Shown here: piece by piece, positions 21,482-32,541 of the stretch
How the letters are laid out: each line of letters opens with the position of its first letter
Numbering within the stretch: the stretch's first letter is position 1
Assembly (NCBI GenBank): GCA_017482355.1
Contig: JAFUNJ010000009.1
Span: 62,001 to 126,000, forward strand
Reading direction: 5' to 3'
Length of the DNA: 64,000 nt
Origin: Clostridia bacterium
GTDB taxonomy: Bacteria; Bacillota; Clostridia; Oscillospirales; CAG-272
The notes under the pieces: model-generated
Database searches by the model: none
Told to the model about the DNA's origin: nothing
The model's input: the letters and a program-made list of their open reading frames with translations, nothing else
Translations under genes and position numbers: made by a program

Positions 21482-21504
21482 GGACGGCGACAGCCGTCCT
21501 TTTT
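21482..21504 (+). terminator. Terminator of dxs
   Basis: GGACGGC, loop GACA, GCCGTCC, then TTTTTC. Confidence 0.88.
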
Positions 21505-21515
21505 CTTTGTTTTGC

Positions 21516-21544
21516 TTGACTTTTATTATAATGTATGGTATTAT
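21516..21544 (+). promoter_or_regulatory. Sigma-A promoter of the Dlt-like operon
   Basis: TTGACT, 17 bp, TATTAT (21539-21544). Gives a leader of about 45 nt before the GTG start at 21596. Confidence 0.75.
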
Positions 21545-21595
21545 ACAATGGGCGTTTGGGCACCCGTGTTAAAATGGACTTATGGAGGATCAAAA

Positions 21596-23128
21596 GTGTC
21601 TTCAGAGAGAATACATAACGTTTTGGCTTATTTACGCAATATCGTACCAAAAAAACCGAATAAGATCGCTTTTTCCGACGGCGAGCTTTCCCTTACCTTT
21701 TCGGACGTTTACGACCGTGCCTGCCGCATCGGCTCGTACCTGAACGAAAACGGGATCTATAAGCGCCCCGTCGTTGTCTTTATGAGAAAATCGCCGCGCG
21801 AGGTAACTGCCTTCTTCGGAGTTATCAGCGGCGGATGCTTCTACGTTCCGATCGACGAGGAAATGCCCCGTGACCGTATTCAGCTAATACTGAATAACGT
21901 GTGCTCGCCTCTCGTTATCTGCGACGAGGACACTCTGCCCGTTGCGTCGAATTTTGACGTTTCGGACGGAAAGGTCGTCCTTTACGATGAGCTTCTTACT
22001 ACCGAGCCGAATTATGAGGCGATCGACAGTATCTATGCGCGTTCGCTCGACATTGATCCGATATACATAGTTTTCACCTCCGGCTCAACTGGCATCCCTA
22101 AGGGCGTTGCCGCCTGTCACCGCTCGGTAATAGATTACATCGAGCAGCTTTCCGAGGTGCTTTCGTTTAGTGAAAGCACGGTGTTCGGAAATCAGACGCC
22201 GCTCTACTTCGACGCTTGTCTTAAAGAGCTTTACCCGACGCTCAAATTCGGCGCGACGACGTATCTTATCCCGAAAACACTCTTCTCGCAGCCGATAGCA
22301 CTTCTTGAATATCTTAATAAGCATAAGATAAACACCGTTTGCTGGGTCGTTTCGGCTCTTACTATGGTAAGCGCGTTCGGCACCTTTGATATTATCAAGC
22401 CGGAGTATCTGCATACCGTTGCCTTCGGCTCCGAGGTGTTCCCGATAAAGCAGTTCCGACTCTGGAGAAACGCGCTTCCGAACGCCTCCTTTACGAACCT
22501 TTACGGTCCGACGGAGGGCACGGGAATGTGCTGCTTCTATCACGCAGACAGAGACTTTGAGGACGGCGAGGCGATCCCGATAGGTAAACCGTTCCGCAAC
22601 CGCGAGATACTTCTTCTTACCGACGAAAATAAGCTTGCCGAGCAGGGACAGGAGGGCGAGATTTGCATCCGCGGAACAGCCGTTACTCTCGGATATTATA
22701 ATGACCCCGAGCGCACCTCAAAGGCGTTTGTACAGAATCCGCTTAACAGCGCCTATCCCGAAATCATTTACAAGACGGGTGATATGGGTAAGCTTAACGA
22801 GCGAGGAGAGCTTGTCTTCGTTTCGCGCCGCGACTATCAGATAAAGCATATGGGACACCGTATCGAGCTTGGCGAGATCGAGGTCAGCGCGAATATGATA
22901 GATGCTGTACAAATGGCTGCTTGCATTTACGACAAGGTGAAGGGAAAGATCGTTCTCTTCTACGTCGGTACCTGTACCGAAAAGGAGCTTACGGTCGCTC
23001 TTAAGGAGCGCCTGCCGCGCTATATGATACCGAACAAGCTCATCCGTCTTGAAACGATGCCACTGACGGCAAACGGAAAGCTCAACCGCGTTGAGCTGAA
23101 AAATAACTTCGAAAATAATATTTACTGA
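21596..23128 (+). CDS. DltA-like amino acid adenylating enzyme (stand-alone A domain)
   Basis: 510 aa. GTG start chosen because GGAGGATCAAAA precedes it; upstream ATGs overlap the promoter. Adenylation motifs: FTSGSTGIPKG (P-loop), YFDACLKELYP with D206, NLYGPTEGTG, YKTGDMG, RRDYQIKHMGHRIELGEIE, and the final Lys in TANGKLNRVE. It should activate an amino acid with ATP and load it onto the carrier protein encoded next. D206 aligns with Asp197 of Bacillus DltA (amino-group contact). G278 in FGSEVFP aligns with Cys269, which in DltA contributes to D-Ala selection, so the substrate may not be D-Ala. First gene of a seven-gene operon. Confidence 0.85.
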   Translation: MSSERIHNVLAYLRNIVPKKPNKIAFSDGELSLTFSDVYDRACRIGSYLNENGIYKRPVVVFMRKSPREVTAFFGVISGGCFYVPIDEEMPRDRIQLILNNVCSPLVICDEDTLPVASNFDVSDGKVVLYDELLTTEPNYEAIDSIYARSLDIDPIYIVFTSGSTGIPKGVAACHRSVIDYIEQLSEVLSFSESTVFGNQTPLYFDACLKELYPTLKFGATTYLIPKTLFSQPIALLEYLNKHKINTVCWVVSALTMVSAFGTFDIIKPEYLHTVAFGSEVFPIKQFRLWRNALPNASFTNLYGPTEGTGMCCFYHADRDFEDGEAIPIGKPFRNREILLLTDENKLAEQGQEGEICIRGTAVTLGYYNDPERTSKAFVQNPLNSAYPEIIYKTGDMGKLNERGELVFVSRRDYQIKHMGHRIELGEIEVSANMIDAVQMAACIYDKVKGKIVLFYVGTCTEKELTVALKERLPRYMIPNKLIRLETMPLTANGKLNRVELKNNFENNIY

Positions 23129-23142
23129 AAAGGAATTTAAAC

Positions 23143-23373
23143 ATGGAAAAGCTTCTTGAAATCCTTACCGATCTTCACTCTGACGTTGACTTCGAAACCG
23201 AGGAAAACCTCATCGACGACGGAATCCTCGATTCGATGGACATCATCTCGCTCATTACCGAAATAAGCGAGGAGTACGACGTTACCATCACCGCAAAGGA
23301 CATCATTCCCGCAAACTTCAATTCCGCAAAAGCACTTTACGCACTTATCGAGCGCCTTTCCGACGAGGACTGA
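23143..23373 (+). CDS. DltC-like acyl/aminoacyl carrier protein
   Basis: 76 aa, acidic four-helix carrier protein. The phosphopantetheine attachment Ser is S31 in DDGILDSMDII. The surrounding LHSDVDFETEENLIDD and PANFNSAKALYALI are close to DltC, more than to fatty-acid ACP (which has DSLD). It receives the amino acid from the adenylating enzyme 14 bp upstream and should hand it to the MBOAT protein encoded 8 bp downstream. Acts in the cytoplasm and at the inner face of the membrane. Confidence 0.88.
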   Translation: MEKLLEILTDLHSDVDFETEENLIDDGILDSMDIISLITEISEEYDVTITAKDIIPANFNSAKALYALIERLSDED

Positions 23374-23381
23374 TTTAACTA

Positions 23382-24974
23382 ATGCTTTTTACTTCGTATG
23401 AATTTTTGGGATTTTGCGCAGTTCTTTTGCTCCTCTACTACATAATCCCGAAAAAAGCACAGTGGCCCCTGTTACTTGTCGCAAGCTATGCGTTCTATTT
23501 TATAGCGGGACCGCAGTTCATTCCCTTTATCGCGGCGACGACCTTGACTGTTTATCTCACTGCCCGCGTTATGCAGAGCATCGCGGATAAGCAGAGCGCC
23601 TTTCTTAAAGCCCACAAGGAAGAGCTGTCAAAGGAAGAAAAGAAGATATTTAAGGACAAGCAGAAGAGAAAAAAGCTCTTTTGGTTTGTCCTTTGTCTGC
23701 TTCTTAATCTCGGTATTCTCGCTACTGTAAAATACGCTAATTTCTTCATCGGAAACATCAATTCCGCGCTGATCTCGTTCGGCTCAAAGAGCGTTCTTTC
23801 CTTTGTGAACGTGATAGTTCCGCTCGGAATATCCTTCTACACCTTCCAGTCGATAGGTTACCTCATCGACGTTTACCGCGGAACGGTGACGGCGGAGAAG
23901 AACGTGTTCAAGTACGCTCTTTTCGTGTCGTTCTTCCCCCAGCTCGTTCAGGGTCCTATCGGCAGATACGGACAGATGAGCGAAACTCTTTATACGCCTC
24001 ATAAATTCGACAGCAAGCAGGTCGGATTCGGGCTTGAAAGAGTCCTTTGGGGTTACTTCAAAAAGCTCGTAATTGCAGACCGCCTTTTCGTTGCGGTCAG
24101 CACGATGATAGGCGATCCGTCGACTTATAACGGCGCGTACTCTATCGTCATTATGTTGTTTTACACGGTTCAGCTTTACGCCGACTTTACGGGCGGTATT
24201 GACATAACTATCGGACTTGCCGAAGCGATGGGAATTCGACTCTCCGAAAACTTCGACCGTCCGTACTTCTCAAAGTCGCTGAAGGAATATTGGAGACGCT
24301 GGCACATTTCGATGTGCTCGTGGTTCCGCGATTACCTTTTCTATCCCGTGTCGGTCAGCAAGCCGATGCAGAAGCTGACGAAGTTTACCAAAAAGGTCTT
24401 CGGAAACAACGTCGGAAAGCGCATTCCGGTATATCTTTCGACTGCTATCGTATGGTTCTCGACAGGTATTTGGCACGGCGCAAGCTGGAACTTTATCGTC
24501 TGGGGAATGGCAAACTTCGCCGTTCTTATGATCTCGGAGGAGTTCGAGCCGCTATATAAGAAATTCAACGATAGATTCAAGTTTACGAAGAGCTTCCCGT
24601 ATACGCTCTTCAGAGTCGTCCGTACCTTCGCGCTCGTTTGTGCGCTCAACCTCTTCGATTGCTACGTTTCTATCGCAACGACGGGTAAGATATTCTTCTC
24701 GGCGTTCGGTGCGAGAAACTACCACGTTCTTTTCGACGGCTCGCTTCTTAATCTCGGGCTTACCTCGCTTGATTACATAATTCTTCTCGGCGGAGTTCTC
24801 CTTATGCTCACGGTAAGCTTGCTTCAGAGGAAGGGAAGTGTGCGAGAGCAGATCTTCCGTCTGCCTTATCCCGTGAGATTTGCCCTCTATTACGGACTGT
24901 TCCTTATCATTATCCTTATGGGTGCTTACGGAATCGGATACGATGCAAGCCAGTTTATTTACAACCAATTCTAA
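23382..24974 (+). CDS. MBOAT-family acyltransferase, DltB-like
   Basis: 530 aa, about 11 hydrophobic segments, larger than classical DltB (about 400). Conserved MBOAT features: FFPQLVQGPIGRYGQM (about residue 185), ENFDRPYFSKSLKEYWRRWH (about 285) and the catalytic His in GIWHGASWNFIVWG (about 365). In the dlt pathway DltB moves D-Ala from the carrier across the membrane; the longer form also resembles AlgI, which O-acetylates polysaccharides. The carrier protein next to it favours aminoacyl rather than acetyl transfer. The following gene encodes the expected extracellular SGNH partner. Confidence 0.88.
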   Translation: MLFTSYEFLGFCAVLLLLYYIIPKKAQWPLLLVASYAFYFIAGPQFIPFIAATTLTVYLTARVMQSIADKQSAFLKAHKEELSKEEKKIFKDKQKRKKLFWFVLCLLLNLGILATVKYANFFIGNINSALISFGSKSVLSFVNVIVPLGISFYTFQSIGYLIDVYRGTVTAEKNVFKYALFVSFFPQLVQGPIGRYGQMSETLYTPHKFDSKQVGFGLERVLWGYFKKLVIADRLFVAVSTMIGDPSTYNGAYSIVIMLFYTVQLYADFTGGIDITIGLAEAMGIRLSENFDRPYFSKSLKEYWRRWHISMCSWFRDYLFYPVSVSKPMQKLTKFTKKVFGNNVGKRIPVYLSTAIVWFSTGIWHGASWNFIVWGMANFAVLMISEEFEPLYKKFNDRFKFTKSFPYTLFRVVRTFALVCALNLFDCYVSIATTGKIFFSAFGARNYHVLFDGSLLNLGLTSLDYIILLGGVLLMLTVSLLQRKGSVREQIFRLPYPVRFALYYGLFLIIILMGAYGIGYDASQFIYNQF

Positions 24975-24989
24975 GAAAGATTTTTAACT

Positions 24990-26060
24990 ATGAAAGCTGC
25001 CGCTAAAAAGTGGATAAAATTTATAGCTTCTGCCGTTATCGTAGTTGTGACGCTGTCGCTTCTTCAGATGCTTCTGATGCCGAAGTATTCGGTTGACGGA
25101 CCTGTCGAGGGCGCGTTCGTAGCCGAGTATTACGGCGAGGTCAAGGATCACGACGTTATTTTCGTCGGCGACTGCGAGGTGTATGAGAATTTTTCTCCCA
25201 TCGTCCTCTGGCGCGATTACGGTATAAACAGCTACATAAGAGGTAGCGCCGATCAGTACATTTATCAGTCGTACTACCTGCTTGAGGATACGCTTCGCTA
25301 CGAAACTCCCAAGGTCGTCGTTTTCAACGTTCAGGCACTTGACCCCAAGAGAGAAGCCGAGGCAAAAGAGGCATATAACCGAATGTCGATCGACGGAATG
25401 AAGTGGTCGCCTGCAAAGATAGGTGCGATCAATTCCTCGATGCTTGAGGATGAACAGTTCCTCGACTACGTTTTCCCGATCCTCCGTTATCACAGCCGTT
25501 GGAGCGAGCTTGATAAGACCGATTTTGAATATATGTTCAAATCGGAAAAGGTCTCGCATAACGGTTACCTTATGAAGGTCGGCGTTAAGCCCGCAGAAAA
25601 CGTTCCTGAGGGCAAGCCGCTTCATGATTACAAGTTTACCGAAAAGGCACGGAAGCATCTTGATATGATGGTCGAGCTTTGCGAGAAAAACGGTATAAAG
25701 CTTCTTCTCATAAAGGCGCCGAGCTTGTATCCCTATTGGTATCCCGAATACGATCAGCAGGTCGCTCAGTATGCAAAGGAGCATAATCTTACCTACATAA
25801 ACTTCCTTGATGAAACGATTCAGGCGGAAACTGGTATTGATTATACGAAAGACACATATGACGCAGGTCTTCACATGAACGTTGAGGGCGCAGAAAAGCT
25901 CTCGGAGTGGCTCGGCAAGTACCTGACCGAGAACATGGGTCTGACCGACAGACGCGGAGAAGCGGAGCTTGCCGCGTGCTGGGAGGACAAGATCGCCTTC
26001 TACGAGGCGGATAAAAAAGCAAAGTACGAAGAATACGAAAAGAACATAGAGGCAAATTAA
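24990..26060 (+). CDS. DltD-like membrane-anchored SGNH protein with Cys at the nucleophile position
   Basis: 356 aa. One N-terminal signal anchor (about residues 9-30) places the rest outside. Block I of the SGNH/GDSL fold reads FVGDCEVYENFSP, with Cys62 where the family usually has the catalytic Ser. The C-terminal Asp-His pair is present in YDAGLHMNVEGA (about D291/H295). DltD and AlgJ/X-type partners of MBOAT proteins take the acyl group and pass it to the wall polymer. The Cys could still form a thioester, so loss of function is not implied. The gene overlaps nothing, but its stop is 1 bp from asnB. Confidence 0.8.
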   Translation: MKAAAKKWIKFIASAVIVVVTLSLLQMLLMPKYSVDGPVEGAFVAEYYGEVKDHDVIFVGDCEVYENFSPIVLWRDYGINSYIRGSADQYIYQSYYLLEDTLRYETPKVVVFNVQALDPKREAEAKEAYNRMSIDGMKWSPAKIGAINSSMLEDEQFLDYVFPILRYHSRWSELDKTDFEYMFKSEKVSHNGYLMKVGVKPAENVPEGKPLHDYKFTEKARKHLDMMVELCEKNGIKLLLIKAPSLYPYWYPEYDQQVAQYAKEHNLTYINFLDETIQAETGIDYTKDTYDAGLHMNVEGAEKLSEWLGKYLTENMGLTDRRGEAELAACWEDKIAFYEADKKAKYEEYEKNIEAN

Positions 26061-26061
26061 A

Positions 26062-27906
26062 ATGTGTGGAATTTGCGGAATTTTTGATAACACGGGAAGC
26101 CGTCTTATCACAAGTGAAATGATAAACAAGATGCTGACGGCGATCCGCCACCGCGGTCCCGACGGCTCTCAAAGCAAAATAATGCCGGGCGTCGGTCTCG
26201 GCTTTAACCGTCTCAGCTTCATTGACCTGAATGGCGGTATGCAGCCGATAACAAACGAGGACGATACTCTTACTCTCATTTGTAACGGCGAGATATTCAA
26301 CTACCGCGAGCTGAGAAGCGAGCTTATCGCTCTCGGTCACGTCTTTAAGACGCAGACAGACGTTGAGGTGATCCTCCATCTTTACGAGGAGCACGGTCTC
26401 GATTTTCCGAACAAGCTTAACGGTCAGTTCGCTATTGCTCTTTACGACAAAAAGGAAGATCAGCTCATTCTCGTGCGCGACCAGATAGGAATCTGTCCGC
26501 TCTTTTATACCGTTGCCGACGGTCAGGTCATATTCTGCTCCGAGATAAAGGGAATCCTTGAATGTCCTTGGGTTGAAAGAAAGCTTAACCTTAAGGCAGT
26601 CGATCAGCTTATGAATTATCCCGGTGTCGTTTCCCCCGAGACCTTTTTTGACGGAATACGCTCGCTTCGCGCAGGACATCTGCTCGTCATCAAGCGTCAT
26701 CAGGAGATAAAGGATATTGAATACTGGGATCTCATCTACAATGCCGAGGAAGAGGACGATAAGGGCGAGGCGTATTACGTTGAAAAGCTCCGCGAAATGA
26801 TGAAGGAGTCTATCAAGCGCCGTCTAGTTGCCGACGTTCCCGTCGGATTCTACGTTTCGGGCGGTCTTGACAGCTCGGTCGTCGCTTGCTATATCGGCAA
26901 GTTCTTACTCGACAGCTATTATTCCTTCTCCGCTGAGATCGGTGAAGCCGACCTCGACGAAAGCCGATTCCAGAAGATCGTCAAGGAGTGCGTCAATTCC
27001 ACTCACTACAAGACGAAGGTCGGCGAGGAGGAAATTTGGAAGAACCTTTACGATGTCGTTTACCACGCAGAGTCGGGTCTTAAAGAAAGCTATGACGTAG
27101 CGGCGTTTATGCTCTCGTCGCTCGTTCAGCAGTCGCCTGCGAAGGCGGTGCTGACAGGTCAGGGCTCCGACGAGTTTTTCTGCGGTTACGTCGGATATAT
27201 GGTAGACCTTTTCCGCGAAATGCAGAAGGGCAAGATGACGAAGGAAGAATGTGAAATAAACGAGCGCCTTTGGGGCGATCCTTATTTCCGTTACGAAAGA
27301 AATCATCCCGAAATAAGAAAGATACACGAAACTGTTTACAGTGACCGCGTAAGAGGCGATATCGAGAGCTTCTCTGCGTTCAGAACAAGCCCCATAAACG
27401 TTGACCGCGTCAAGGGACTTTCCTCGCAGAAGCGCCGCTCGTATATCGACTACAAGCTCCGTCTTTCCGATCACCTGCTCACCGAGCACGGCGACAGAAT
27501 GTTCTTCTCTCATTCGGTAGAGGGACGCCACCCGTTCCTTGACAGAGATCTCCTCGCATTCGTTGCGACGATCCCCGACAAGTATAAGATGAACGGCGCA
27601 AAGGAAAAGTACATTCTCAAAAAGGCGGGCGAGGGGATCGTTCCCGACGAGATACTCAAGAGAAGAAAGTTCCCGTTCCAGGCGCCGGGTATGTCGTCTA
27701 TGGTAAAGAAGGCGAACGGAGAGATCGAGTTCCTTTCCGATTCGCTTATAAAGAAGTACGATATATTCGATCTTAATAAGGTCAAAGAAATGAAGAAGGT
27801 ATACCTTGCCGACGACTTCCGTCTGATGGGTGCTTACGAGATAGATTACCTTCTCATCGTTATGACCGTCACGATGCTTTGCGAGCGTTACGGTCTCAAG
27901 GCGTAA
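26062..27906 (+). CDS. asnB: Asparagine synthetase (glutamine-hydrolysing), AsnB-type amidotransferase
   Basis: 614 aa. N-terminal glutaminase with catalytic Cys2 (MCGICGIFDN), HRGPDGS, NGEIFNY and glutamine-site residues; C-terminal synthetase with the PP-loop SGGLDSSV (about residue 268), GQGSDEFFCGY and HSVEGRHPFLDRD. Converts aspartate to asparagine or, as with Lactobacillus plantarum and Bacillus AsnB homologues, amidates meso-diaminopimelate in peptidoglycan precursors. It starts 1 bp after the SGNH gene, firmly inside the Dlt-like operon. Either it supplies Asn as the amino acid for attachment, or it amidates wall precursors so that both steps lower surface negative charge. Sequence alone does not decide. 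Confidence 0.9.
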   Translation: MCGICGIFDNTGSRLITSEMINKMLTAIRHRGPDGSQSKIMPGVGLGFNRLSFIDLNGGMQPITNEDDTLTLICNGEIFNYRELRSELIALGHVFKTQTDVEVILHLYEEHGLDFPNKLNGQFAIALYDKKEDQLILVRDQIGICPLFYTVADGQVIFCSEIKGILECPWVERKLNLKAVDQLMNYPGVVSPETFFDGIRSLRAGHLLVIKRHQEIKDIEYWDLIYNAEEEDDKGEAYYVEKLREMMKESIKRRLVADVPVGFYVSGGLDSSVVACYIGKFLLDSYYSFSAEIGEADLDESRFQKIVKECVNSTHYKTKVGEEEIWKNLYDVVYHAESGLKESYDVAAFMLSSLVQQSPAKAVLTGQGSDEFFCGYVGYMVDLFREMQKGKMTKEECEINERLWGDPYFRYERNHPEIRKIHETVYSDRVRGDIESFSAFRTSPINVDRVKGLSSQKRRSYIDYKLRLSDHLLTEHGDRMFFSHSVEGRHPFLDRDLLAFVATIPDKYKMNGAKEKYILKKAGEGIVPDEILKRRKFPFQAPGMSSMVKKANGEIEFLSDSLIKKYDIFDLNKVKEMKKVYLADDFRLMGAYEIDYLLIVMTVTMLCERYGLKA

Positions 27907-27915
27907 GGAGGAAAT

Positions 27916-28980
27916 ATGAAGAAGATTATATTTATTATTCTGCTTGCTTTGATCGCTTGCTTTGCTTTCTCTTGTAATGATGAGAGCGAGCCGATTCCGG
28001 TCATTGTCGGAGTTAAGGAAAATATAACCCTATACGCCGACGATCCTGTCGAGCTCATCCAAAGCGCGCTTCTTGACGGAGTGACGACCGAGGGCGGAAA
28101 GCAGACCGAAATAATCGTTAAGGTGTTTAATAAAGGCACCGATTCGGAAACGTCTCTATTTACGGCAGGAGAATACGACGTTAAGTATACCGCGAAAAAC
28201 AAGAAGGTAAAAGAGGTTACCGCGTCGCTTACCGTCAAGCCGGCGGACACCACCGCTCCCGAGTTTACGGGAATCAAGGATCTTGTCGTATATCTTGGCG
28301 ACACTGTTTCCTACCGTGACGGCGTTACAGTTACCGATAACGATGATGAAAACGTGACCTTTACGGTTGACGCGACGAAGGTAGACCTTACCCGCCTCGG
28401 CGCTTACAATGTTACCTATACCGCGACCGACAAGAGAGGAAATACCGCATCGGTAACTGCTAAGGTCTCCGTTCTTGAGCCGCTTGACGGCGGTCAGGAT
28501 TCGAGCGTTTGCACTAAGGAGGAGCTTGATGCTTTGTGCCAAAGTATTCTTGACAGTATTCTTAAAGAAGGAATGACTGACCGTGAGAAGGCAGAGGCAA
28601 TATATAATAAGGTATATAAAGTAAAGTACGTTTCAACCGATGACGATCCCAATTGGATCGTGAACGCATGGACGGCACTTACTACGAATAAGGGTGACTG
28701 CGTCAATTACGCCGCCGCTTCAAGAGCACTTCTCACGATGGCGGGAATACCGAACTATCAGATAGAGCGCGTCGGCGGTACGACGGATCACTACTGGCTT
28801 ATTGTTTGTATCGACGAAAAGTGGTATCATTTCGATACCTGCCCCACCTCGAAGAAATATCCCTTCAAGTGCTTCCTTAAGACCGATTCCGAGGTCAAGG
28901 CATATTCCGACAGCAGAACCGACAAACCGAATTATTACGGCTACGATAAGGAAAGCTGTCCTTATGACGTAGTTGATTAA
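27916..28980 (+). CDS. Lipoprotein with Ig-like domain(s) and transglutaminase-like domain
   Basis: 354 aa. Lipobox ACFAFSC gives lipid-anchored Cys20. Residues about 30-195 form beta-rich Ig-like repeats; the second has VVYLGDTVSYRDGVTVTD, characteristic of DUF5011/HYR-type domains. Residues about 205-350 are a transglutaminase/protease-like core with Cys in TTNKGDCVNYAAASRALL, His in TDHYWLIV and Asp in YHFDTCP, a plausible Cys-His-Asp triad. Extracellular, wall-facing. Members of this superfamily cleave or cross-link peptides and amide bonds. Being 9 bp after asnB in the same operon, it could act on the modified wall polymer. Substrate unknown. Confidence 0.8.
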   Translation: MKKIIFIILLALIACFAFSCNDESEPIPVIVGVKENITLYADDPVELIQSALLDGVTTEGGKQTEIIVKVFNKGTDSETSLFTAGEYDVKYTAKNKKVKEVTASLTVKPADTTAPEFTGIKDLVVYLGDTVSYRDGVTVTDNDDENVTFTVDATKVDLTRLGAYNVTYTATDKRGNTASVTAKVSVLEPLDGGQDSSVCTKEELDALCQSILDSILKEGMTDREKAEAIYNKVYKVKYVSTDDDPNWIVNAWTALTTNKGDCVNYAAASRALLTMAGIPNYQIERVGGTTDHYWLIVCIDEKWYHFDTCPTSKKYPFKCFLKTDSEVKAYSDSRTDKPNYYGYDKESCPYDVVD

Positions 28981-28991
28981 AGGAGTATATC

Positions 28992-29501
28992 ATGAAAAGA
29001 TTTTTAGTATTATTTCTGAGCGCAATTCTTCTGATTTCCTTTGCTTCCTGTACGGCACCTGCCGATACCGGAAATCAGGGCGGCAAGACGCCGAAGGACA
29101 GCAAGTATTTCTTCAAGGTCGCAAATAAGGATAATTACGCAGTTAAGATCGACGCGGATATGGCTGACGTGCTTAAAGCACTTGGCGAGCCGCTTCAGTA
29201 TTTTGAAGCCGCTTCCTGCGCCTTCGACGGTCTTGATAAGACCTATACCTATGCAGGTTACGTTATCCTCACCCGTCCCGACGGCAAAAAGGATTACGTG
29301 AATTCCATTCAGCTTACCGATGACAGCGTGCAGACCCCCGAGGGCGCGTATGTCGGTATGACCCCCGACGCGGTAAAGGGCATTTACGGCAAACCCACTG
29401 AGGAGACAGAAACGCTCCTTTCCTATACCGACGGTAACACGACGCTTAACTTCATCCTTAAGGACGCAAAGGTGATTTCGATAGAGTACCTTCCTGCATA
29501 A
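28992..29501 (+). CDS. Small lipoprotein of unknown function (169 aa)
   Basis: Lipobox LISFASC gives lipid-anchored Cys20. The mature part shows two similar units, VLKALGEPLQYFEA (about 60) and AVKGIYGKPTEETE (about 130), each followed by beta strands. This is the duplicated helix-loop-strand look of BLIP/SmpA-like domains, which bind other proteins. No catalytic motif. Last gene of the Dlt-like operon (11 bp after the transglutaminase-like lipoprotein, with a terminator following). Might inhibit or recruit a wall enzyme; that is inference from fold and position. Confidence 0.72.
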   Translation: MKRFLVLFLSAILLISFASCTAPADTGNQGGKTPKDSKYFFKVANKDNYAVKIDADMADVLKALGEPLQYFEAASCAFDGLDKTYTYAGYVILTRPDGKKDYVNSIQLTDDSVQTPEGAYVGMTPDAVKGIYGKPTEETETLLSYTDGNTTLNFILKDAKVISIEYLPA

Positions 29502-29512
29502 TTGCAAAAAAT

Positions 29513-29547
29513 AAAACGGCAGACACGGAAACGTGTCTGCCGTTTTT
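29513..29547 (+). terminator. Terminator of the Dlt-like operon
   Basis: AAAACGGCAGACACG, tetraloop GAAA, CGTGTCTGCCGTTTT: perfect 15-bp stem ending in T's. Confidence 0.93.
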
Positions 29548-29818: not shown

Positions 29819-29974
29819 ATAACGCGGCGAAGATTTGTAAAATGGCGAATAGTGTGAGCGTTTCCCCCTTTTCCGACAAATAAAACCTGCTCTTTACAAA
29901 ATCTTCTTTTTATGGTAGAATATAATGAATGACTATGTGATAATATAAAAATACCGATCTTTATGAGGTTTTAT

Positions 29975-31360
29975 ATGAAAAACAGCAAGTACCGCAGGCG
30001 TTTCGGAAAGACGCTGATACAAATATATAAATTCCTATTCTTCCTACTGCTCGTTGCGATGGTCGTCGGATCGTGGCTCGAGATGCAGGGGCTTTATCTT
30101 ATCGACGGCAAGACTACTATCGTCCTTACTGTGATCCACGCGCTCTGCCTCGGCACGCTTCTTCTCACCTATCACGCTCTTGATATAGGAAAAAAGCGTC
30201 CGCTTGACCTTGTTATCGGTCAGCTGCTCAGCGTAATTATAAGTGACGCTGCGTCGCTTCTCAGCGCGTCGCTCGTTCTTAAAACGCTTCCGCACATGGG
30301 AATTGCAGGCGTGACGCTTCTTTGTCAGGGCATTCTCTGTGTGCTCTGGTCGGTCAGTGCTACTTGGCTTTATAACGCATGGGTTCCCGCAAAAAAAGTC
30401 GCAGTCCTTTATTCCGACGAGCGCGCTTACGAGTCGATGGGTGAATTGCACCTCGATAAGAAGCGCTACCGCGTAGTTAAAACAGTTGACCTTACAGATA
30501 CCGAGAAGGACTGCGACGGGATCGTCTCCGAGCTTCCCGAGGTCGAGGGTGTCTTCCTTTGCGGTCTTCCGACTAAGCTTCGTAACGACCTTATGAGCTT
30601 GTTTATAAAGAAAAACGTGACGGTCTATATCCGTCCCAAGATAAGCGATATCTTCCTCAACACCGCGCAAAGACGCTACATGTTCCATATTCCGATGATG
30701 TCGTACGAGAGCGAGAATCATTCAGTTATCGTGCGTGCGTCGAAGCGGCTTCTCGATATACTCGTATCGCTTCCGCTTGCCGTTATCGCGCTTCCGTTTA
30801 TGCTTATTGCCGCTATCGCGATAAAGATAGAGGACGGCGGACCTGTCCTCTATAAGCAGGACCGTCTTACAAGGGGCGGAAAGGTATTCAGAATAATGAA
30901 GTTCCGTTCCATGAGAGTTGATGCCGAAAAGGACGGAGTTGCTCGTCTTGCCTCGGAAAGCGACGACCGCATAACGAAGGTCGGCAAATTTATCCGCGCG
31001 ACGCGAATAGACGAGCTTCCGCAGCTTTTAAATATACTTAAGGGCGATATGTCGCTCGTCGGTCCTCGCCCCGAGCGTCCCGAAATTGCCGAGCAGTACG
31101 AGAAGGAGCTCCCCGAATTCCATCTGCGCCTGCGCGTGAAGGCAGGTCTTACCGGCTACGCTCAGATACACGGTAAGTATAATACGACTCCCTACGATAA
31201 GCTTCAGATGGACCTTATATACATTAACGATATGTCTGTTCTGACCGATATTAAGCTTCTCTTCCAAACGATGCAGACCGTTTTCCAAAAGGAAAGCACA
31301 GAGGGCGTCAAGAATGGGCAGACGACTGCAAGCAAGAACGACGGGGAAGAAAAGAAATGA
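29975..31360 (+). CDS. Polyprenyl-phosphate sugar-1-phosphate transferase (WbaP/CpsE-like)
   Basis: 461 aa from the ATG after TGAGGT. Five N-terminal membrane helices (about residues 15-145), a soluble region (about 150-250), another helix (about 265-290) and the bacterial sugar transferase domain: DILVSLPLAV, IKIEDGGPVLYKQDR, FRIMKFRSM, RIDELPQLLNILKGDMSLVGPRP and GLTGYAQIHG. Transfers the first sugar-1-phosphate to undecaprenyl phosphate to start exopolysaccharide, capsule or glycoprotein glycan synthesis. The next gene, a glycosyltransferase, overlaps it by 4 bp. A TATAAT lies at 29921-29926, but without a clear -35. Confidence 0.92.
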   Translation: MKNSKYRRRFGKTLIQIYKFLFFLLLVAMVVGSWLEMQGLYLIDGKTTIVLTVIHALCLGTLLLTYHALDIGKKRPLDLVIGQLLSVIISDAASLLSASLVLKTLPHMGIAGVTLLCQGILCVLWSVSATWLYNAWVPAKKVAVLYSDERAYESMGELHLDKKRYRVVKTVDLTDTEKDCDGIVSELPEVEGVFLCGLPTKLRNDLMSLFIKKNVTVYIRPKISDIFLNTAQRRYMFHIPMMSYESENHSVIVRASKRLLDILVSLPLAVIALPFMLIAAIAIKIEDGGPVLYKQDRLTRGGKVFRIMKFRSMRVDAEKDGVARLASESDDRITKVGKFIRATRIDELPQLLNILKGDMSLVGPRPERPEIAEQYEKELPEFHLRLRVKAGLTGYAQIHGKYNTTPYDKLQMDLIYINDMSVLTDIKLLFQTMQTVFQKESTEGVKNGQTTASKNDGEEKK

Positions 31361-32541
31361 AAAAGGTTCTTATTGTCGGTCAGGATATGTTTATCAGCGG
31401 CGTGTCGAGAGCGCAGCTTGGGCTTCTGCATGCCTTTGATAAGGAAAAGTATAAGGTCGACCTCTTTCTCCGAAACCACGAGGGCGAGTTTTTAAAGTAT
31501 ATTCCCGATGACGTTACGCTTCTTCCCGAAAAAAAGGCGTATAGGTGCGTCGATATGACGACGGTTGAGACCTTGAAGCAGGGACGCATATTCCAGGCAT
31601 TCGGCAAGGCGTACGGAATGGTGAAAGCGAAGAGCTACGCGAAGAAGCATGGCGTTCAGCTTTCCGCCGTCGCGCTTGATTACACTCATAAGCATCAGAA
31701 GCGTTTTCTTCCTATGATCTCAAAAGAGGAATACGACCTCGTTATAAGCTTTGTTGCGCCTCATTATTTCGGCGCGTACAAGTGCAGGGCAAAGAAGCGC
31801 CTAAGCTGGATACACACGGATTATTCGCTTATTGATATTGATGCGAAAAGCGAGGAAAAGGTATGGGGTCTATACGACGGTATTGCGTCGATCTCCGATT
31901 CCGTTGGTATTGAATTTTCGAAAAAGCTGCCGACGCTAAAGGATAAGATAGTAAGAATAGATAATCCGATCTCACCGTCGCTTATCAGGCGTTCTGCCGA
32001 TGAGGGACAGAGCGAGATGGCAAAGGACGGTATCAGGATAGTTTCCTGCGGTACTCTTGCTCCGGGTAAAAATTTCAGAAGCATTCCGAAGATGGTCTCA
32101 ATACTGCTTAACGAGGGGCTTGACGTTAAATGGTATATAATCGGTGACGGTTCCGACCGCGCCGAGATCGAAAAGCGCATAGCGGACGAGGGCGTGACGG
32201 GCAGAGTTATACTGCTCGGTAAGAAGGAAAATCCTTACCCGTATATGAAGGAATGCGATCTTTTCGTTCATCCGAGCTTAAGAGAGGGCAAGGCGGTCTC
32301 GGTCATCGAGGCGCAGATACTCGGTAAGCCCGTAGCGATAACAAATTTCCCGACTGCTCATTCACAGCTTAAGGACGGCTTTGACGGCGTTATCGTTCCG
32401 CTCGATACCGAGGGATGCGCAAAGGGAATCTTAGAGCTTCTTCGCGATACCGAAAAGCTTGAAGCACTGAAAAATAACTGCCGAAATACCGATTACGGCA
32501 GTGAAAAGGATATGAACACTATCTACTCGTTTATCGAGTGA
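31357..32541 (+). CDS. Glycosyltransferase family 4-like
   Basis: 394 aa, GT-B fold. N-terminal GQDMFISGVSRAQLGLLHAF is the glycine-rich acceptor-side loop. The C-terminal donor half has SCGTLAPGKNFRSIP, WYIIGDGSDRAEIEKRI, VILLGKKENPYPYMKECDLFVHPSLREGKAVSVIEAQ, with the E-x7-E motif (EGKAVSVIE). Retaining glycosyltransferase that probably adds the second sugar to the lipid-linked intermediate made by the sugar transferase upstream (ATGA overlap). Only two glycan genes lie here, so the rest of the pathway must be elsewhere. Confidence 0.88.
   Translation: MKKVLIVGQDMFISGVSRAQLGLLHAFDKEKYKVDLFLRNHEGEFLKYIPDDVTLLPEKKAYRCVDMTTVETLKQGRIFQAFGKAYGMVKAKSYAKKHGVQLSAVALDYTHKHQKRFLPMISKEEYDLVISFVAPHYFGAYKCRAKKRLSWIHTDYSLIDIDAKSEEKVWGLYDGIASISDSVGIEFSKKLPTLKDKIVRIDNPISPSLIRRSADEGQSEMAKDGIRIVSCGTLAPGKNFRSIPKMVSILLNEGLDVKWYIIGDGSDRAEIEKRIADEGVTGRVILLGKKENPYPYMKECDLFVHPSLREGKAVSVIEAQILGKPVAITNFPTAHSQLKDGFDGVIVPLDTEGCAKGILELLRDTEKLEALKNNCRNTDYGSEKDMNTIYSFIE

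Follow-up and report, generated by a model that had tools for sequence, protein, structure and literature searches.

D-alanylation is the textbook route by which Gram-positive bacteria tune their surface charge and resist cationic peptides. It is carried out on teichoic acids by the products of the Dlt operon (DltXABCD). In DltA, the methyl group of D-alanine is held between a leucine, a methionine and a cysteine, as described in PMC8972799. In DltX, as in PatA, the acyl group is carried on the tyrosine of a hexapeptide motif of the FxYxxF type, according to PMC12148441. Here we analysed an operon that lies in a 64,000-nucleotide stretch of a Clostridia bacterium genome (contig JAFUNJ010000009.1, positions 62,001 to 126,000; hereafter the window). 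It encodes a stand-alone adenylation (A) enzyme, a carrier, an MBOAT acyltransferase and an SGNH-like protein, together with an AsnB-like amidotransferase, a transglutaminase-like protein (TG) and a small lipoprotein. With a probability that we put slightly above even, the sequences point to a Dlt-like pathway whose activated amino acid is aspartate, most likely in the D form, rather than D-alanine, with amidation by the AsnB-like enzyme in some species. It is the simplest account that uses an aspartate racemase found in relatives, the cavity of the A enzyme and AsnB together.

The operon and its recurrence

The operon comprises seven intact genes (open reading frame, ORF, calling), all on the + strand between 21596 and 29501 and separated, in order, by 14, 8, 15, 1, 9 and 11 bp. 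The initial annotation had described seven genes with gaps of 1-15 bp between one promoter and one terminator, and this was borne out, with both end signals being consensus matches. Pfam families found across the operon were AMP-binding, PP-binding, MBOAT, Asn_synthase with GATase, and Transglut_core with Ig-like domains. The features are:

21516..21544, + strand: promoter-like site, TTGACT-17-TATTAT, with TG ahead of the second hexamer; consensus match only
21596..23128, + strand: stand-alone A enzyme, 510 amino acids; probable GTG start behind GGAGG
22211..22225, + strand: codons D206 to K210 of the A enzyme, with the amino-group Asp, A207 replacing the DltA Leu and K210 replacing the DltA Met; alignment
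22427..22429, + strand: codon G278, at the DltA Cys position; alignment
23143..23373, + strand: DltC-like carrier, 76 amino acids, LDSM phosphopantetheine site; family models
23382..24974, + strand: MBOAT acyltransferase, 530 amino acids, DltB homologue with an extra C-terminal part; family models and structure matches
24954..24971, + strand: C-terminal FIYNQF of the MBOAT protein, fused acyl-shuttle hexapeptide of the FxYxxF type; motif as given in PMC12148441
24990..26060, + strand: SGNH-like protein, 356 amino acids, predicted N-terminal membrane anchor; sequence
25167..25178, + strand: GDCE motif, with Cys where two same-class DltD-like proteins have Ser (GSSE); motif comparison
26062..27906, + strand: AsnB-like glutamine amidotransferase of an operon-linked subfamily, 614 amino acids; family models and alignment
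27061..27105, + strand: YHAESGLKESYDVAA, at the place of the TTIRAS stretch of two E. coli-type AsnB enzymes; alignment
27916..28980, + strand: TG, Ig-like and transglutaminase-like exported protein; Pfam Transglut_core and Ig-like
28992..29501, + strand: small lipoprotein, without a match in family searches
29513..29546, no strand assigned (reported by the scan for the - strand only): terminator-like hairpin of 15 pairs, 3' of the last gene; consensus match

The composition proposed for the operon proved to be shared with relatives, among named as well as same-family genomes, and is not a one-off. A scan of named genomes yielded at least 588 relatives of the A enzyme, of which the best-scoring 80 loci, not a random sample, were kept. 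Each of them encodes an orthologous A enzyme, and many are filed as Lachnospiraceae or Oscillospiraceae. Their usual gene set, in varying order, consists of TG, A enzyme, carrier, MBOAT, SGNH-like protein and small lipoprotein. An ORF of the aspartate racemase family was found in 59 and AsnB in 30 of the 80 loci (both in 19, neither in 10); some loci end at contig ends, so that absence counts include cut loci. Agathobacter ruminis JK623, for instance, carries both racemase and AsnB, and Pseudobutyrivibrio sp. OR37 has the racemase alone. Within the family of the window's genome, 40 of 146 genomes gave an A match at E <= 1e-40, 33 of these at E < 1e-100, the window's genome included. The 32 other same-family loci fetched contained AsnB once (L035) and TG in 20 cases. 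Genome G258 (locus L213), drawn separately in a sample of the phylum, has all eight genes together and may belong to a species already represented among the 80 named loci.

One operon with racemase and without AsnB (L120) lies on a contig filed under Candidatus Gastranaerophilales, pointing to either inter-phylum transfer or a misbinned contig. More distant A enzymes, 37-47% identical (L053, L058, L063, L065, L066, L215), adjoin GNAT, polysaccharide deacetylase, AT3 acyltransferase, Orn/Arg-decarboxylase-like or PALP genes. Such neighbourhoods hint that Dlt-like systems form a broader group, some of whose members carry other cargo.

Substrate cavity of the A enzyme

The A enzyme fails both DltA models (NF003417, 282.7 bits versus a cut-off of 476; TIGR01734, 270.5 versus 559.85). 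For an alignment we chose L101, L102 and L103, DltA-like proteins from the same class, all of which pass NF003417 while none quite reaches TIGR01734. The Leu, Met and Cys of the DltA cavity correspond to A207, K210 and G278 of the window's enzyme. The alignment also bore out the initial annotation: Gly278 stands opposite the Cys of DltA, and Asp206 opposite its Asp. Guided by the alignment and by the nonribosomal peptide synthetase (NRPS) code, we assigned D206, A207, K210, C249, F277, G278, L302, G310 and M311 to the substrate site or its vicinity. All nine residues are identical in every one of the 77 named loci compared, irrespective of the presence of AsnB or racemase; the other three of the 80 were not used, as their A ORF falls short of 480 amino acids. 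Among 28 same-family loci (a set without three weaker loci and with L035 treated separately), A207 was kept in 21, K210 in 26 and G278 in 24. The predicted cavity would be roomier and positively charged at the place of the side chain, which would fit D-aspartate.

Gly278 had been put forward as a sign of altered selection, and as a sole argument we reject it. Two of the three same-class DltA-like proteins lack the Cys too (Val, Ile); the residue alone is weak evidence, because only one of the three has Cys there. At the Met and Cys positions, L101 has Met and Cys, L102 Ala and Val, and L103 Ser and Ile. L102 and L103 may load a cargo other than D-alanine, or the cavity may be tolerant of change.

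The same two proteins lend some weight to an ordinary D-alanylation system of altered sequence in which AsnB and racemase are passengers, as does the Dlt-like core of A enzyme, carrier, MBOAT and SGNH-like protein. However, Leu, Met and Cys are all replaced, identically in the 77 named relatives, and racemase and AsnB are linked to the operon in several gene orders. Scores also fall far under the cut-offs for DltA, DltB and DltC. The carrier reaches 37.7 bits versus 68 for DltC, though it is a homologue nonetheless; the MBOAT protein reaches 156.3 versus 375 for DltB, although DltB structures were matched at E 1e-26. We regard ordinary D-alanylation as highly improbable. The failed DltA models, the three changed cavity residues and the racemase in most relatives' loci together support the earlier proposal that this Dlt-like system handles some amino acid different from D-alanine.

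Aspartate racemase and AsnB-like amidotransferase

In relatives, the racemase gene is a 238-amino-acid ORF that lies mostly between TG and the A gene (38 of 59 loci) and always on the operon strand; a looser search found 60 such ORFs. It occurs between at least four different pairs of neighbours, with a median gap of 21 bp to labelled neighbours. Two operon racemases tested pass the aspartate racemase model TIGR00035 (210 and 212 bits, cut-off 93), and the best solved match of one is the aspartate racemase 1jfl (E 2e-46). Two Cys motifs were found by pattern in 49 and 46 of the 60 ORFs. On the family model and these two catalytic motifs, the ORF is predicted to have aspartate racemase activity.

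We then counted racemases in 47 of the 80 named genomes, searched whole at E <= 1e-15 and including all 21 whose locus has none. A racemase was found in 43, as a single match each except for the genome of L146 (two partial matches). It lay in the locus in 26 of the 47 genomes, where random placement of a single copy in each genome would give 0.28. In 17 of the 21 genomes with a racemase-less locus it lay outside; for cut loci this may still be the same operon. In each of the three sister genomes of the window's (L106, L108, L110), a racemase gene lies at another place and adjoins an ATP-grasp-like gene. Among ten out-of-locus places fetched, an ATP-grasp-like gene adjoined the racemase in eight, and a MurE-like gene was nearby in four. 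This layout resembles the D-Asp bridge pathway of Lactococcus described in PMC4155827. A search of solved structures with an ATP-grasp-like neighbour gave no match.

Relatives have a separate racemase cluster (L196-L201, L206, L208, L218-L222, L224, L225, L227), with varying subsets of ATP-grasp-like (weak matches), MurE-like ligase and AsnB genes, the latter of a type with a DEP motif. It is likely an L-Lys/D-Asx cross-bridge module. Its existence speaks for the possibility that AsnB and racemase serve peptidoglycan D-Asx cross-bridges and are merely co-regulated with an unrelated Dlt-like system. However, AsnB of that cluster is of another type, only 30-33% identical, and among the genomes searched we saw no operon-type AsnB on its own. 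We consider this explanation very unlikely.

Two motifs of asparagine synthetases are preserved in the operon AsnB, Cys2 of the glutaminase and SGGLDSS of the synthetase part. At one place in the alignment, two same-family E. coli-type synthetases (L083, L084) have the stretch TTIRAS, presumably aspartate-binding, and ten other large AsnB enzymes have DEP. TTIRAS is missing from the window's AsnB and from 30 operon relatives in this alignment; there the window's copy reads YHAES-x-x-KESYD-x-AA, which is kept with few changes in those 30 relatives (fragment L139 left out). Enzymes of the AsnB/LtsA type likewise lack Asp-binding residues (PMC8554201), in line with the role assumed for TTIRAS. 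Operon copies are 65-99% identical to the window's AsnB, versus 27-33% for twelve other AsnB enzymes.

We also examined how closely this AsnB follows the operon. Among 398 genomes of the phylum (E <= 1e-150) the operon type was found only in the window's genome and G258, and among the 146 same-family genomes only in the window's genome and G086; in every case it was part of the operon. Among the 47 named genomes, 16 have it (>= 70% identity), 12 in the locus and four (L112, L124, L128, L146) with a locus cut by a contig end. No copy away from the operon turned up in these searches. Changes on a quick tree of the A enzyme (107 rows; 13 left out, 12 taken as cut loci and L116 dropped needlessly) numbered ten for AsnB presence and five for the racemase. 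AsnB is therefore an optional partner: it goes with the operon, and the operon does not need it. A chance neighbour was rejected on its presence in 30 of 80 named loci and constant company with the operon in the 398- and 146-genome samples, an essential part on its presence in one of 32 same-family loci and on the ten changes.

The main idea of the initial annotation was asparagine made on site; the A enzyme would then load asparagine, L or D, supplied from aspartate by AsnB. The frequency of AsnB among named loci fits this idea, and the operon AsnB passes the asparagine synthase model TIGR01536 (437 bits, cut-off 267). However, the A cavity is identical in loci with and without AsnB, TTIRAS is lacking, and the cavity Lys would suit a carboxylate better than an amide. 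With AsnB also missing from 50 of the 80 loci (some cut), asparagine made on site is unsupported, and asparagine loading appears distinctly unlikely. Amidation of already loaded aspartate is more likely than synthesis of free asparagine, because the operon AsnB lacks the aspartate-binding motif. General amidation of wall precursors, the annotation's alternative, is less likely for an AsnB that was not found apart from the operon in these searches. What stood of the earlier interpretation was thus the Dlt-like system for another amino acid and its partnership with AsnB, the latter seen in the operon of all three genomes that have the enzyme in the two samples (the window's, G258 and G086).

The window's genome (77.5% complete) has no asparaginyl-tRNA synthetase above the family cut-off (best 84 versus 342.6 bits). 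Nor does it have a second AsnB above the TIGR01536 cut-off; a 37-residue stretch elsewhere passes the Pfam cut-off (22.9 versus 21 bits). Its Asn-tRNA may be made by amidation.

Several observations weigh against D-aspartate as cargo of a Dlt-like relay. Two of three DltA-like references themselves lack the Met and the Cys, and NRPS pockets for Asp and Asn place a Lys elsewhere than K210. The operon AsnB passes an asparagine synthase model, as given above. A profile comparison of the SGNH-like protein with two DltD-like proteins gave no real match (probability 1.9%). No racemase lies in the window or its operon, which is why the initial annotation missed it; none was found (E <= 1e-15) in four of the 47 named genomes, nor any homologue (E <= 1e-8) in 12 of 34 same-family genomes, the window's included, 33 of the 34 carrying a homologous A gene. 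A model for cysteate racemase also accepts the two operon racemases (203 and 205 bits versus a cut-off of 190). For the outlying neighbours, the ATP-grasp matches are below cut-off (Pfam, 19.7 versus 29.1 bits; NCBIfam, 28 versus 218 bits in another; none in a third). The genomes without a racemase and the cysteate model would suit an A enzyme whose cargo is L-aspartate or a different acidic amino acid such as Glu or cysteate, with the racemase serving a different partner such as wall D-Asp. Against this stands the racemase inside the locus in 59 of 80 cases at so short a median gap, and we judge this alternative unlikely. D-aspartate remains our preferred cargo.

Proposed relay and surroundings of the operon

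From the observed gene content, co-occurrence and residue conservation we infer a route, with its substrate, configuration, order of amidation and acceptor polymer and the roles of TG and the small lipoprotein. The A enzyme would form an aminoacyl-AMP and load the DltC-like carrier. The MBOAT protein would then carry the group through the membrane and place it on the tyrosine in the FIYNQF motif at its own C-terminus. The strict FxYxxF pattern ends 88 of 98 such proteins and a loosened one 96 of 98, with QFIYNQF in 51 and QFIYNRF in 23. A separate DltX microprotein was not found between the operon genes, where gaps of 1-15 bp leave no room (ORFs were listed from 70 amino acids). The SGNH-like protein would accept the group on its Cys and pass it to a surface polymer. 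Its match to Pfam Lipase_GDSL_2 is below cut-off (22.2 versus 32.9 bits) and the SGNH fold is putative. GDCE was found in 82 of 86 SGNH-like proteins, the window's included, and D291, G293, L294 and H295 are invariant in 23 aligned ones; the GDCE Cys (Cys62) is likely the nucleophile. The AsnB-like enzyme would amidate the remaining free carboxyl, probably after loading, to give a more positive group of the D-Asn type. D-aspartate would come from the racemase, encoded in the same operon in most named relatives and elsewhere in the window's sister genomes. For racemisation and amidation after addition there is a precedent in PMC4155827.

TG has the residues C262, H292 and D307, kept in 89 of 89 proteins, and its matches to solved chains cover the Ig-like parts only. 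The initial annotation called both last products lipoproteins. For the small one the label was retained, and for TG it is weak, as only 8 of 89 proteins pass the lipobox pattern.

A bolder version, which we hold to be doubtful, is a widespread surface modification of gut Clostridia. D-aspartyl or D-asparaginyl groups would travel through a relay of thioester, acyl-Tyr and acyl-Cys, and TG would trim, transfer or cross-link the group. The acceptor could be an amine, giving an amide (amino sugar or peptide), because the last carrier is a Cys thioester and not a Ser ester. 

Among the papers listed in the literature searches (mainly open-access papers, judged by title or the start of the abstract) we found no description of such an operon or surface decoration. 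If the preferred reading, a D-aspartate pathway with optional amidation, is true, the retention or loss of a single gene would let related gut bacteria adjust their surface from zwitterionic to positive. The system would account for a conserved unnamed gene set in many Lachnospiraceae and Oscillospiraceae, be a new gut source of D-Asp and D-Asn, and offer enzymes with new features, namely the amino-acid cavity of the A enzyme and a Cys variant of an SGNH-type transferase.

The promoter-like site lies downstream of the terminator-like hairpin (21482-21499) of the preceding gene, which we take to be dxs. The hairpin behind the last gene is reported for the - strand only, because the + strand T run was counted into the stem. 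Across the region, the scan gave 25 promoter-like and 30 terminator-like sites, versus 14.2 and 16.2 in shuffles. Downstream of the operon, genes for a polyprenyl glycosylphosphotransferase and a GT4 glycosyltransferase (29963-32541) have a promoter-like site of their own; the polymer that they make is a candidate acceptor.

Comparison with known systems

Like the Dlt operon, the locus combines an A enzyme, a carrier, an MBOAT protein and an SGNH-type protein, and the amino-group Asp is kept. In contrast to Dlt, its cavity has Ala, Lys and Gly instead of Leu, Met and Cys, its hexapeptide is fused to the MBOAT protein with no separate DltX, and GDCE takes the place of GSSE. AsnB, TG and the small lipoprotein are extra, as is the racemase in most named relatives. 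For contrast we used L216 and L217, same-class operons taken to be Dlt from DltA-model score and gene order; their DltB proteins have no fused hexapeptide, and L216 has a separate 75-amino-acid ORF ending in FTYAEF. The operon works like Dlt, and since it fails the tests that define Dlt, it is a variant and not a member.

PatA/PatB-type MBOAT-SGNH O-acyltransferases likewise have a C-terminal FxYxxF-type motif on the MBOAT protein and a separate SGNH-like partner. As described in PMC12148441, they use acyl-CoA and no carrier, whereas the present operon encodes both a carrier and an A enzyme, and Cys takes the nucleophile position of its SGNH-like protein. The D-Asp/D-Asn bridge of Lactococcus (RacD, AslA, AsnH) also joins an aspartate racemase and an AsnB-family amidotransferase in an envelope pathway. 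There, according to PMC4155827, an ATP-grasp ligase activates the amino acid onto the stem-peptide Lys, a task that would fall here to the A enzyme, carrier and MBOAT protein. The amidation proposed for the operon AsnB parallels that of AsnH on the D-Asp bridges of Lactococcus peptidoglycan. AsnB/LtsA, which amidates diaminopimelate, is likewise an AsnB-family enzyme without Asp-binding residues that acts on an envelope component, according to PMC8554201. The operon AsnB appears to differ from B. subtilis and Listeria AsnB in its motif, and it is set apart by its genetic tie to a Dlt-like operon.

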